64,000 nt of DNA. Source: Methanoplanus sp. FWC-SCC4. GTDB taxonomy: Archaea; Halobacteriota; Methanomicrobia; Methanomicrobiales; Methanomicrobiaceae. Each line of letters starts with the position of its first letter. Within the stretch, counting starts at the first letter, position 1. The translations under genes and the position numbers were made by a program. The stretch is taken from NCBI RefSeq assembly GCF_032878975.1, contig NZ_CP043875.1, forward strand, positions 186,001-250,000. Direction: 5' to 3'. Below the pieces are notes generated by a model, which saw nothing but the letters and a program-made list of their open reading frames with translations, ran no database searches and was not told the origin of the DNA. Shown one piece after another: positions 14,524 through 20,177 of this stretch.

Positions 14524-15426
14524 ATGGAAGAGTTACTATTTGGCATCGGTATAAGCGCTATTGCGGGCGCTCTTGCCACTGTGTCCGGTGCTGCGGAGGA
14601 TACTGAATCTGATATCGGTTCACAGGGTGACCCGAACTCACAGGTTCAGCTCGCTCCACAGATGGGATATATTCACCGTATTTACAGCAAAGCTATTTCC
14701 GGTGAACCCCCAGCATACGGTCTATGGTGTACATTAGGAGCAGGTCTCGCATGGGCGCTAATGGCGATAAACTACAATCCGGTTCTTGCAATAGTCTTAG
14801 GTTCGGCTATCGCTGTGTTTGTACAGGGTGTATATGCAACCACAGCTTATCTGGGCAGGACTGCAAGTCTGGCAAAATTTGAACAGCCGGTTTACATCGA
14901 CGTAATAAAGTCGGTTACAACCGTGACTATGGCACATGCGTTTGTAGCAATATTCACATGTGTGGCAATGTGTTTCCTTATGGTAAACGCGCTTGGACAT
15001 CCTTTCCCACTGCCTCTCTTAGGCCTTGTATGGGGTATTGCACTTGGTGCAGCAGGTTCTGCAACAGGTAACCCGTTCTACGGAAAGGAACGTCAGTATC
15101 AGTCACAGGCATTCGGTGCCGGTGTACCGATCTCTGCATCCGGTAACATCGTCCGCTATGCAGAAGCAGGCCAGCGCAGTTCACTCGACAACGGATGGTT
15201 CACCTCAAAGATGGGCGGTCCAGCATCAGGTGTCTGTTTCGGTCTTATTGTATTCCTTGAACTGTGGCGTACAATCTTCTTTGAAGAGTTCGCAGCAGGA
15301 TGGGGTGCAGTAATTGCAGGTGTTGTACTGATTCTCATCTTCATGATTATCGACAGATATGTTGAGGTATGGGCACGCAAGACCTACGGACCATACACAG
15401 AAGAAGCAGAGGAGGCATCATCATGA
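14524..15426 (+). CDS. mtrE: Tetrahydromethanopterin S-methyltransferase, subunit E
   Basis: 300 residues, polytopic. Mtr is the membrane complex that moves the methyl group from methyl-H4MPT to coenzyme M and pumps sodium. MtrE contributes membrane helices of the transmembrane part. The start is well supported by AGGAGG. The order mtrE-D-C-B-A-F follows the known operon. Six or so hydrophobic segments, with a glycine/asparagine-rich loop (SATGNPFYGKERQYQSQAFGAGVP) typical of MtrE around residues 178-200, are visible. The last codons overlap mtrD in an ATGA arrangement. Confidence 0.95.
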   Translation: MEELLFGIGISAIAGALATVSGAAEDTESDIGSQGDPNSQVQLAPQMGYIHRIYSKAISGEPPAYGLWCTLGAGLAWALMAINYNPVLAIVLGSAIAVFVQGVYATTAYLGRTASLAKFEQPVYIDVIKSVTTVTMAHAFVAIFTCVAMCFLMVNALGHPFPLPLLGLVWGIALGAAGSATGNPFYGKERQYQSQAFGAGVPISASGNIVRYAEAGQRSSLDNGWFTSKMGGPASGVCFGLIVFLELWRTIFFEEFAAGWGAVIAGVVLILIFMIIDRYVEVWARKTYGPYTEEAEEASS

Positions 15427-16256
15427 GTGCACTTGGCGGAGGTTCCAGTGGTGGAGAGGGAATCAACCCTGTAGGAACAGCGGTTGGTATCGTACTTCTC
15501 TTAATCGCTATCGGAGCACTTTACGTTCTTTCACCAGGGCTTGCTTTCATGTCCCTGATCGGTGTAATCATCGGCGGTGTTCTCATCGGTTTCGGTGTTC
15601 ACTTTGTACCTGTCGGAGGAGCTCCGGCAGCTATGGGTCAGTCCCCTGGTATTGCAACCGGTGTAACAATGCTTGCAGCCGGTGCAGGTCTTGCAGGTCT
15701 CTTTGGCGGTGCATGGGCAGCAGAGCTTGGCTTTGGTGTTGCACTCGCCGGCGGAGCAATCGGTGGCGGTCTTATGATGGCAGTCACCTGTCTGATGGTC
15801 AACGTAATCTACGTATATGGTATGGGTATTCCTGCCGCATCCGGTAAGGTTGCAAAAGATCCTATCACAGGCGACACATTTGAGGCATACAAATCACAGG
15901 GTACTGAAGGTCACGGCCTGCCGTTCATCTCCTATGTTGGTGGTGTTATCGGTGGTATGCTCGGTGGTCTTGGCGGTACGCTGATCTACCTTGAACTTCT
16001 CAAAGTCTACGAAGAATTCCTTCCAGGAATGTTCAACGTTCCTGCAGAGCAGATTCTGCCTCTTGCAGTAGGACTTGCAGGTGTGTTTGCAATTGGTATG
16101 TTCCTTGTAAATGCTGTAATTGCAGCATATAACATTACAGGTACAATCGAAGGTCCACACGACCCGAAGTTCAAGAGATTCCCACGTGCAGTTATCGGAT
16201 GTGCAGTAGCATCTGCAGTATGCGGAATGCTTGCAATTATATTGGTGGTTATGTGA
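15423..16256 (+). CDS. mtrD: Tetrahydromethanopterin S-methyltransferase, subunit D
   Basis: 277 residues from ATG 15423, which overlaps the mtrE TGA; an upstream in-frame start at 15369 lies inside mtrE and is rejected. The protein is very glycine- and alanine-rich with about six membrane spans, as usual for MtrD. The GGAPAAMGQSPGIATG and VYGMGIPAASGKVAKDPITGD segments are the loops I recognise. It forms part of the sodium-conducting membrane domain with MtrE and MtrC. Confidence 0.95.
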   Translation: MSALGGGSSGGEGINPVGTAVGIVLLLIAIGALYVLSPGLAFMSLIGVIIGGVLIGFGVHFVPVGGAPAAMGQSPGIATGVTMLAAGAGLAGLFGGAWAAELGFGVALAGGAIGGGLMMAVTCLMVNVIYVYGMGIPAASGKVAKDPITGDTFEAYKSQGTEGHGLPFISYVGGVIGGMLGGLGGTLIYLELLKVYEEFLPGMFNVPAEQILPLAVGLAGVFAIGMFLVNAVIAAYNITGTIEGPHDPKFKRFPRAVIGCAVASAVCGMLAIILVVM

Positions 16257-16268
16257 GGTGTTTTGAAA

Positions 16269-17144
16269 ATGTCAGTTGAAATTACAGTTTCTGAAGGTGG
16301 AATGCCACACAACAAGGTTCTTGCAATTGGTCTTGTAGGTTCCCTTGTATGCATTTACCTGACTTACATGAACACACTTGCAAATACACAGTTATTTGCA
16401 TTCTTCGGTGGTCTCGCAGCAGTGTTTGCACTCTGGTGGGGTACCGATACAATTAAGCACCTTTGCAGTTACGGTCTTGGAACTGGTGTTCCTTCAGCCG
16501 GTATGATTGCACTGGGTTCCGGTGTAATTGCCATGGTTCTTGCTACAAAACTCAGCTCGATGAACATGATTCCTGTATCATCAGTTCTTATCATCCCAAT
16601 CGGCTGTGTTGTCATTGGAGCAATCCTGGGAGCTATTCTCGGTTACATTGCAAACAACATTGTAAACATGAACATTCCTGTAATGGTCGTATCTCTTGCA
16701 GAACTTTGTATCGTTGGAGCAATCACCATCCTTGGTCTTGCAACAATGGTCAGCGGTTCATTCGCATTTGCTGATCTGGTTACCGGCTCATCCACATTCT
16801 TCGGAGTGGAAGTTGCAAACTACCAGTCATCAGTGATCGGCGGAGGAGTCATTGCAGTTATCTTTATGCTTGGCGCAATTGCTGTCCAGCACGCATTCAA
16901 TGCATGTCTCGGACCAAATGAGTCACAGGACAGAACACTCATGCTTGCAGCAGAGTGTGGATTCCTGAGCATGATTACAGTTGCAATCATGTCATTTGCA
17001 TTCATCAGCTTTACAGCAGCAGTTGTTTCATTCATTATTTCAGCAATCGGATGGGTTTACACATACAAGCAGTATCTTGTTATGTCCAAGCGTGATGCAT
17101 TCATGTGGCTTGATGCCAAGCCAATTCGTGAGAAGGAGGCCTGA
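16269..17144 (+). CDS. mtrC: Tetrahydromethanopterin S-methyltransferase, subunit C
   Basis: 291 residues from ATG 16269, eight bases after a GAGGTG site (16255-16260); a TTG at 16263 would be too close to that site. The protein has about seven to eight hydrophobic segments and the hydrophilic loop HAFNACLGPNESQDRTLMLA (around residue 205-225) found in MtrC. It is the third large membrane subunit of the sodium-translocating part. Two bases separate it from mtrB. Confidence 0.95.
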   Translation: MSVEITVSEGGMPHNKVLAIGLVGSLVCIYLTYMNTLANTQLFAFFGGLAAVFALWWGTDTIKHLCSYGLGTGVPSAGMIALGSGVIAMVLATKLSSMNMIPVSSVLIIPIGCVVIGAILGAILGYIANNIVNMNIPVMVVSLAELCIVGAITILGLATMVSGSFAFADLVTGSSTFFGVEVANYQSSVIGGGVIAVIFMLGAIAVQHAFNACLGPNESQDRTLMLAAECGFLSMITVAIMSFAFISFTAAVVSFIISAIGWVYTYKQYLVMSKRDAFMWLDAKPIREKEA

Positions 17145-17146
17145 TT

Positions 17147-17431
17147 ATGGGAAATATTCAAGTACTTCCAGAATTCGGCCTTGTTGCAGATCCAATGGTT
17201 GGTGTTGTTACAACCGCTGGTGCATCACTTGGTCCGGTTCTTGAGCAGGTTGACGAACTTGAGAAGATCACCGATGATATCGTTGGTATGCTCTCAGGTG
17301 AAGGCAGCTTCCTTTCATCATTCCCGAACAGAGAGAAATCTCTTGTTTATGCAGGAAGTGTCACCGCAATCTGGTATGGTATCGCAGTTGGATTACTTAT
17401 TGCGGGTATAGTCGCATTTGCGTTAGTCTGA
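17147..17431 (+). CDS. mtrB: Tetrahydromethanopterin S-methyltransferase, subunit B
   Basis: 94 residues: a soluble N-terminal part starting with [16 protein letters not shown], a short helical segment and one C-terminal membrane helix (about residues 73-93). Size and layout match MtrB, a small stalk subunit. It lies between mtrC and mtrA as in other methanogens. Confidence 0.93.
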
Positions 17432-17441
17432 GGTGTTAAAA

Positions 17442-18164
17442 ATGGCAGATAAAAAATCTCCGGCTTCAGGCTGGCCAAAGATTCAGGGTGACTACCACAC
17501 AGGTGATTCAAACAGCCCGGTTGTAGTTGTTACAATGGGCTCTCACCTTGACGAACAGGGAATTTGTGATGCAGGCGCAGCAATGTGCGGTTCCTGTAAA
17601 ACAGAAAACCTCGGTCTTGAGAAGATTGTTGCAAACGTAATTGCAAACCCAAACATCAGGTTCCTCGTAACATGCGGAACAGAAGTTAAGGGTCACCTTT
17701 CAGGTCAGTGTCTTATTGCACTTCACGCCGGCGGTGTTGAAGGTGGTAAGATCGTTGGTGCAAAGGGTGCAATTCCGTTCATTGAGAATCTCAGTGAAGA
17801 TGCAATCAAGCGCTTCCAGGAACAGGTTGAACTTGTCGACATCATGGAATCTGAGGATATGGGTGCAATAAAAGCCAAGATTGACGAGCTTAAAGCCCGT
17901 GACCCTGGTGCATTCGATGCAGATCCAATTGTTGTTGAGGTCAAGGAAGAGGCCGGCGGTGAAGGTGAGGCTGAGGGTGAAGAAACACCACTTACAGCAG
18001 AACTCGCATTAATCCATGCAAGGATGAAGACCATCCAGATGATGGTCACAAGCATCGGTTACAGAAACCGCTTTGCAGCTGGTGTTTATTCCGGTAAAGT
18101 AGAAGGACTCATGATCGGTCTGATCGTGTCTTTTGCCATACTTGGCTTCATGTTAATGGGGTGA
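17442..18164 (+). CDS. mtrA: Tetrahydromethanopterin S-methyltransferase, subunit A (complete, copy 1)
   Basis: 240 residues from ATG 17442; a GTG at 17433 falls in the ribosome site AGGTG. The soluble corrinoid-binding domain (residues 1 to about 175) has His85 in [11 protein letters not shown], the position of the lower axial ligand to cobalt of the prosthetic 5-hydroxybenzimidazolyl cobamide in MtrA. A charged Glu/Gly linker follows, then the normal MtrA tail: helix [34 protein letters not shown] and one membrane helix to the end. The first 173 residues are almost identical to the second copy at 18384. Confidence 0.95.
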
Positions 18165-18169
18165 AATAA

Positions 18170-18382
18170 ATGTCAGATGAAGAGAAATCAGGTCCTTCAA
18201 TCATCAGAATGGCAGCAATCGACGATATGATGGCTGACATGCGTTACAAAGGACAGGTCATGAGCAGAACAAACAAACTTGAATCAGGTATCATGGATTC
18301 CGGATTAACCGGATTTATGGTAGGATTCTTTGTATCACTTGTTCTGGTTCTTGCACCGGTATTCTTGATGGGAGGCATCTAA
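18170..18382 (+). CDS. mtrF: Tetrahydromethanopterin S-methyltransferase, subunit F
   Basis: 70 residues: a cytoplasmic amphipathic part ([32 protein letters not shown]) and one C-terminal membrane helix (residues about 47-67). This is the standard MtrF layout. It resembles the C-terminal part of MtrA and is thought to pack similarly. One base separates its stop from the next start. Confidence 0.93.
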
Positions 18383-18383
18383 G

Positions 18384-19124
18384 ATGGCTGATAAAAAATC
18401 ACCTGCATCAGGATGGCCTAAAATCCAGGGTGACTACCACACAGGTGACGCAGAGAGTCCGGTTGTTGTTGTAACAATGGGTTCCCACCTTGACGAGCAG
18501 GGTGTCTGTGATGCAGGTGCAGCAATGTGCGGTTCCTGTAAGACAGAGAACCTCGGTCTTGAGAAAATTGTTGCAAACGTTATTGCAAACCCAAACATCA
18601 GGTTCCTCATAACATGCGGAACAGAAGTTAAGGGTCACCTTTCCGGACAGTGTCTTATTGCACTTCACGCCAACGGTGTTGAAGGCGGTAAGATCGTCGG
18701 TGCAAAGGGTGCAATTCCGTTCATCGAAAATCTCAGTGAAGATGCAATCAAGCGCTTCCAGGAGCAGGTCGAGCTCGTTGACATCATGGAATCTGAGGAC
18801 ATGGGTGCAATAAAAGCCAAGATTGATGAGCTTAAAGCCCGTGATCCAGGTGCATTCGGTGCGGATCCAATTGTAGTTGAGGTCAAGGAAGAAGCTGGCG
18901 GAGCAGAAGGTGCAGGTGTTGCAACCGCAAATCCACAGTTCCTTGAGGTTGAAAAACGCCTCAATGAAATTGAAAAGAACCTTGAGTTCGCAGATGCAGA
19001 AATGGCCCAGCGTGTAGGTCGTAAAGTTGGCCGTGATATAGGTATTCTTTACGGTCTCGTCGCAGGTATGTTTGTATTCATGATGTTGTTGGTATTACTC
19101 CCAAAACTTATGGCTTTAATATAA
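18384..19124 (+). CDS. Fusion of a second MtrA corrinoid domain with MtrG
   Basis: 246 residues. Residues 1 to about 173 repeat the MtrA domain of the gene at 17442 with about six substitutions, including the cobalt-ligand position His85. After a short Gly/Ala linker the normal MtrA tail is absent; instead residues of about 184-246 are an Mtr[22 protein letters not shown], then [22 protein letters not shown] and one membrane helix. No separate mtrG exists in the operon, and the fusion sits exactly in the mtrG slot between mtrF and mtrH. The complex may therefore carry two cobamide domains per protomer. The frame is intact and codon bias is high, so the protein should be made. Confidence 0.93.
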
Positions 19125-19139
19125 GGAGGAGTGACAAAA

Positions 19140-20177
19140 ATGTTCAAATTCGAGAAAGAGCAGACGGTACTCGACTTCAATGGTACCAAAATTGGTGGGC
19201 AGCCTGGAGAATATCCAAGGGTGCTCGGCGCTTCCATCTTCTATAACAAACATGAGACAGTTATCGATGATGAGAAGGGTGTAATAGACAAGGATCGCGC
19301 AGAGGCGCTCTGGAACAGGTGCCTGGAACTTTCCGACCAGACGGGAATTCCACACTTTTGCCAGATCATCTCAGAAACACCAGAGGCATTTGAGAGCTAC
19401 TTCCAGTGGTTCGACTCAGTCGACAACAAGACTGCATTCCTTATGGATTCATCCAACCCTGCTGCACTCGCACACGCCTGCGGGTATGTAACAGAGGTCG
19501 GACTTGCAGATCGTGCAATCTACAACTCAATCAACGGTTCAATCGGTCCTGAGAACATTGAGGCACTGAAGAACAGTGACGTTGATGCAGCTATTGTTCT
19601 TGCATTCAACCCTGGTGACCCGACCGTCCGTGGACGTGAGCAGGTTCTTACCGAGGGTGGAGTTGCAGGCCAGGAAAAATCAATGCTTGCAATTGCAGAA
19701 GAATGTGGTATTAAACGCCCTATTCTTGATACAGCAGCAACACCTCTCGGACTCGGTTCCGGCGGTTCATTCCGTGAAATCCTTGCATGCAAGGCAATCC
19801 ACGGTCTCCCAACCGGTGGTGCATACCACAACATGACAGTGTCATGGCCATGGTTAAAGCGCTGGAGAGGATCCAAAAAGAATCCTTCACTGCTCTTACA
19901 GCAGTACGAAGGAAAGGATGTTCTTGCTGAACAGATGAGCCATCACCACTCAGGTGGAATGGAAGGTATCAAGCAGGCAGCCTGGACAGCACCGGATATC
20001 GGATGCAACATCATGGCAGCAACACTTGGTGCAGATCTTATCATGTACGGACCTATCGAGAACTGTGAATCTGCTTCCACAGCAATTGCATTCTCAGATA
20101 TCGTACTTGCAGAGGCTGCAAAAGAGTTTGGCCTTGAGCCACAGGTGGACACCCACCCACTCTTCCACCTCGTATAA
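19140..20177 (+). CDS. mtrH: Tetrahydromethanopterin S-methyltransferase, subunit H
   Basis: 345 residues from ATG 19140, ten bases after AAGGAGG (19123-19129); an upstream GTG at 19131 is adjacent to that site. The soluble TIM-barrel subunit transfers the methyl group from methyl-H4MPT to the MtrA corrinoid. Starting FKFEKEQTVLDFNGTKIGGQPGEYPRVLGASIFY, it contains KTAFLMDSSNPAALAHA and AIVLAFNPGDPTVRGREQVL, as in other MtrH proteins and related MtxH/MeTr barrels. It ends the operon. Confidence 0.96.
   Translation: MFKFEKEQTVLDFNGTKIGGQPGEYPRVLGASIFYNKHETVIDDEKGVIDKDRAEALWNRCLELSDQTGIPHFCQIISETPEAFESYFQWFDSVDNKTAFLMDSSNPAALAHACGYVTEVGLADRAIYNSINGSIGPENIEALKNSDVDAAIVLAFNPGDPTVRGREQVLTEGGVAGQEKSMLAIAEECGIKRPILDTAATPLGLGSGGSFREILACKAIHGLPTGGAYHNMTVSWPWLKRWRGSKKNPSLLLQQYEGKDVLAEQMSHHHSGGMEGIKQAAWTAPDIGCNIMAATLGADLIMYGPIENCESASTAIAFSDIVLAEAAKEFGLEPQVDTHPLFHLV

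Follow-up and report, generated by a model that had tools for sequence, protein, structure and literature searches.

The gene at positions 18384 to 19124 of the window (the whole 64,000-nucleotide stretch of DNA analysed here, positions 186001-250000 of a single 2.31 Mb contig) encodes an MtrA-MtrG fusion of the known type mtrA-2b, a real and well-preserved gene of a kind published in 2015 and standard across the order Methanomicrobiales. The fusion, its fixed position, the conservation of its cofactor residues and the concerted evolution of the two MtrA domains were observed directly. From these sequence comparisons, the best explanation, and one we consider probable, is that mtrA-2b provides the Mtr complex with two working corrinoid heads per protomer, or six per trimer. 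We infer that both heads carry cobamide, share one complex and turn over. How many B12 heads each complex has matters for the mechanism of Mtr, which carries out the sodium-pumping step in methanogenesis.

The operon in the window has the order mtrE-D-C-B-A-F-(A-G)-H, and its features are as follows:

14524 to 15426, plus strand: mtrE
15423 to 16256, plus strand: mtrD
16272 to 17144, plus strand: mtrC
17147 to 17431, plus strand: mtrB
17442 to 18164, plus strand: mtrA-1, a normal MtrA of 240 aa with its own C-terminal anchor (Pfam MtrA, E 1e-85; TIGR01111, 335 bits)
18170 to 18382, plus strand: mtrF, lying between the two A copies (Pfam MtrF, E 1.2e-18)
18384 to 19124, plus strand: mtrA-2/G fusion of the mtrA-2b type, 246 aa, a single ORF with Pfam MtrA and MtrG matches
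18384 to 18902, plus strand: MtrA corrinoid domain of the fusion, residues 1-173 (Pfam PF04208, E 6.1e-86; predicted fold matches 5l8x_A)
18636 to 18638, plus strand: His85 codon of the fusion, inside the MtrA corrinoid domain
18891 to 18947, plus strand: Ala/Gly/Glu tether of the fusion, residues 170-188 (pLDDT below 50 in the AlphaFold2 model)
18924 to 19121, plus strand: predicted MtrG stalk anchor of the fusion, residues about 181-246 (Pfam PF04210, E 4.8e-22; model)
19140 to 20177, plus strand: mtrH, downstream of the fusion

The fusion ORF starts at an ATG with GGGAGG upstream, and its MtrA and MtrG parts share one frame, with no internal stops and a junction at about residues 170-183. 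The Pfam MtrA match covers residues 4-173, a complete domain, and the MtrG match covers residues 181-237; at these scores chance similarity is not an issue for either part. The cobalt ligand of MtrA is His84 in M. marburgensis (PMC4915002) and His85 in M. mazei (PMC12774963), and His85 of the fusion aligns with both. An earlier note on this DNA had described a full corrinoid domain with His85 joined in frame to MtrG, and the 246-aa frame, the Pfam matches to both parts and the aligned histidine bear this out; its coordinates and residue numbering were also correct. In an AlphaFold2 model built from an input alignment of 51 fusions (mean pLDDT 78), the corrinoid domain is mostly confident and the predicted stalk helices span residues 184-199 and 203-245. 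The low confidence of the model over residues 170-188 suggests that this tether is probably disordered, and by sequence it looks about the same length as the tether of MtrA-1. Foldseek matched the model to the MtrA crystal structure 5l8x_A (E 8.6e-23, TM 0.94 to the target) and also to 5laa, the MtrA crystal structure with cobalamin.

Across the whole genome, assembled as one 2.31-Mb contig, there are two MtrA domains, one MtrF and one MtrG, the last being the fused copy. The fusion thus stands in for a free mtrG while a normal mtrA is kept upstream, as the earlier note had proposed. The A domains of mtrA-1 and the fusion differ at 58 of 534 aligned bases (about 10%), mostly silently (pS 0.348 and pN 0.021 over residues 1-165), and because of this divergence the fusion cannot be an assembly duplication. 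More generally, it is hardly conceivable that the fusion is an artefact of assembly or gene calling. Repeated A domains do fragment many assemblies, and most short frames in the order stop at a contig edge; against such an origin, the window lies within a single long contig, its two copies are distinct at those 58 bases, and the identical junction recurs in about a hundred assemblies.

Whether this architecture had been described for Methanomicrobiales, a question raised by the earlier note, is answered by Wang et al. 2015 (PMC4632066), who reported that mtrA occurs twice in mtr operons of both Methanomicrobiales and Methanococcales. Their mtrA-2b is an MtrA-MtrG fusion between mtrF and mtrH, present in all eight Methanomicrobiales genomes complete by 2015, and its counterpart mtrA-2a, an MtrA-MtrF fusion in Methanococcales and Methanocella arvoryzae, is of independent origin according to the same authors (PMC4632066). 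The window gene shows every feature of mtrA-2b, with A and G in one frame, a slot between mtrF and mtrH and mtrA-1 upstream, and its genome belongs to the order in which the fusion is found throughout. Beyond PMC4632066, the present analysis adds a census across the order, the observation that cofactor residues persist where gene conversion appears to have lapsed, and an exchange of anchors elsewhere in the phylum.

The census took in every genome of the class with a completeness of 90% or more, 135 in all; in this set Methanomicrobiales is the only order of that class. MtrG was found in 127 of them, one copy each, and the fusion was the only form seen. An intact frame of fusion length (at least 225 aa) was present in 98 of these 127 genomes. 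The shorter frames of the other 29 run up against a contig edge in 26 cases, and in the remaining three genomes (G158, G184 and G023) an N gap or frame breaks interrupt them within a contig; apparent free MtrG genes within the order were accordingly rejected, every short frame being a contig edge or a broken frame. MtrF was also absent from all seven genomes searched of the eight without MtrG, as expected if assemblies break at that spot. In the sample of the phylum outside the order, MtrG was free wherever frames were listed, with frames of 56-143 aa. Draft contigs were seen to break inside the A repeats (for example L056-L058, L060-L064 and L168-L174), with the consequence that mtrG, mtrF or mtrA may be overlooked when drafts are annotated automatically. 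In three assemblies (loci L007, L106 and L109) mtrB is followed directly by the A-G fusion, and mtrA-1 (or its tail) and mtrF are missing there; repeat collapse between the A copies is the likeliest cause of this arrangement, with a real deletion as the alternative.

Wang et al. found the A domains within a genome to be more alike than orthologues, with an average identity of 92.4%, and named gene conversion as the cause (PMC4632066). Across the 71 distinct genomes in which neither copy is broken, we found a mean within-genome identity of 0.951 (median 0.976) over residues 1-165, compared with 0.745 for orthologues, and the closest relative was the genome's own paralogue in 58 of the 71. The two copies of a genome are far less alike at residues 171-178 (identity 0.606), the stretch in which their anchors start to differ. 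The A domain of the window's fusion is 0.905 identical to its own mtrA-1, and its identity to other genomes of the set reaches 0.842 at most. The window pair are sisters (support 0.962) in a tree of nucleotide sequences from 80 genomes; sister pairs number 57 in total, 46 of them with support of at least 0.9, and the pairs that are not sisters fall inside clades of two or three close genomes or in one Methanospirillum-like clade of eight. In a few lineages, among them the Methanospirillum-like group and Methanomicrobium, the copies are only 0.79-0.84 identical, and there, judging by sequence, conversion appears to have lapsed. These comprise L011, L111 and L175-L180 (Methanospirillum-like), L001 and L002 (Methanomicrobium) and L110, and the lapse makes them suited to copy-specific proteomics.

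The residues D17, K53, T54, E55, N56, G58, N65, G84 and H85 are invariant in both copies in 80 of 80 genomes, as is the GAI-F-EN segment; the cobalt-ligating H85, its Glu partner E55 and the B12 tail pocket residues that were checked, as defined in PMC4915002, are all kept. This conservation could partly be a by-product of conversion, and it is conceivable, if unlikely, that the second head is mainly structural or regulatory, with its cofactor pocket maintained only by gene conversion from mtrA-1. The homogenised tract does span nearly the whole A domain, with identity dropping at residues 171-178, which would allow passive retention. The lineages with lapsed conversion argue against this origin: their diverged copies (identity 0.79-0.83), the most diverged having dS of about 0.8-1.7 and dN/dS of 0.04-0.12, keep every cofactor residue. 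Since it is independent of conversion, retention in these lineages is the best evidence here suggesting that both heads bind cobamide and are used.

The earlier note had suggested that the second MtrA domain might either double the cobamide sites per protomer or replace the first copy under some conditions. Doubling fits the retention of all binding residues in both copies across the order and would be the outcome we favour; replacement is the weaker of the two proposals. In its fuller form, the latter would hold that the two proteins serve different complexes or conditions, the fusion replacing mtrA-1 in one of them. We found no expression data speaking directly to this, and regard it as very unlikely: both genes share one operon, MtrG comes only from the fusion and the MtrA anchor only from mtrA-1, and both anchors are part of the stalk core in the solved complexes. 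No position separates the two copies across genomes, the most variable site differing in 14 of 71, and hence there is no sign of order-wide specialisation.

Existing structures suggest how two heads could operate within one complex. Single helices of MtrA, MtrB, MtrF and MtrG make up the stalk, in which MtrA and MtrG pair closely and MtrG forms an axial bundle of three helices inside the membrane; the A head, on a flexible linker, is proposed to shuttle between MtrH and MtrCDE (PMC10998594). In M. mazei each trimer has three MtrH dimers, or six MtrH, and only three A heads, and the distal MtrH active site is thought unlikely to be reached on steric grounds (PMC12774963). We propose that an ancient duplicate of the MtrA cobamide domain was fused to MtrG, so that the cell's only MtrG would enter the Mtr stalk bearing a second B12 head. 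Each protomer would then hold two equivalent heads, one on the MtrA anchor and one on the neighbouring MtrG anchor, so that a trimer would have six heads alongside its six MtrH. Each head would collect methyl groups at MtrH and deliver them to coenzyme M at MtrCDE; the two could probably reach the same sites and raise the local supply of methyl-cobamide. It is speculative that the MtrG-borne head attends to the second MtrH in a dimer, and throughput might not double with two heads, given the steric doubt about the distal MtrH site (PMC12774963). If both heads work, the stoichiometry of the current model cannot be general, since the whole order has the second head. The word "fusion" does not occur in either cryo-EM paper, and both source organisms have one head per protomer. 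In the literature searched we found no structure, proteomics or cobamide count of Mtr from Methanomicrobiales, and on the proteomics or essentiality of the two copies the only source was PMC4632066, which relays Sarmiento et al. 2013 at second hand. Swapping of heads between anchors by connectase was also considered and rejected for the window: PF09894 is missing from its genome and from all but 8 of 30 relatives, and the MtrA motif is RDPGA in the window genome as against the KDPGA recorded for the ligase.

Other arrangements of the MtrA head were seen elsewhere. In nine genomes of the same phylum (families f10 and f12, which we guess to be ANME-1-like archaea), the MtrF model prefers the tail of an MtrA frame of about 250 aa over the adjacent small protein. 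The three f10 loci that were read (L193, L194 and L195) have an MtrA domain joined to an MtrF-type anchor, with Pfam MtrF E-values of 2e-16 and 7e-15 for the two scanned. The mtrF slot of these loci holds a free protein of 62-70 aa similar to the MtrA anchor: it matches TIGR01111 at positions 182-237 with E about 1e-8, slightly ahead of the MtrF models. By MtrF scores, f12 has the same pattern of exchanged anchors. An anchor tree places the free anchors with those of MtrA, and the fused anchors lie within the F clade with support of 0.90. In five of the nine genomes the assembly contains no further MtrA domain. If this exchange is correct, a head on a foreign anchor can suffice, and a functional MtrG-borne head becomes more plausible. 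A narrow literature search found no description of the f10 and f12 exchange, which may be newer than the known fusions. MtrG at the three f10 loci has a long charged N-terminal extension.

A further family (f14), which we take to be probably relatives of Methanocella, has in three genomes (loci L190, L191 and L192) an MtrA-MtrF fusion accompanied by a normal mtrA and by mtrG as a free gene, the arrangement known from Methanocella arvoryzae. One of these (L191) carries two tandem mtrG genes, and a fourth f14 locus (L189) is without the fusion. Two f5 loci distant from the mtr operon (L185 and L186, in G069 and G058) each encode an MtrA-like domain, the third in its genome and divergent. It is possible, though we would hold it only tentatively, that the Mtr head is a movable module able to work from more than one anchor; in Methanomicrobiales both heads of a protomer would then work, six heads to six MtrH, with the MtrG head serving the other MtrH of the dimer.

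Set beside known systems, the window gene matches mtrA-2b in the fusion itself, the slot between mtrF and mtrH, the mtrA-1 kept upstream and the homogenised A domains; nothing sets it apart, and it adds one more genome, with an A-domain identity of 0.905. With mtrA-2a it shares a second MtrA domain on another stalk anchor and heads that evolve in concert, but the anchor of mtrA-2a is MtrF whereas that of the window gene is MtrG. The canonical Mtr of M. marburgensis (8Q3V) and M. mazei (9QTQ) is likewise built of eight subunits around a stalk of MtrA, MtrB, MtrF and MtrG and holds B12 on MtrA through His84 or His85. In contrast to the fused arrangement described here, MtrG is free in these complexes and each protomer has a single MtrA head.
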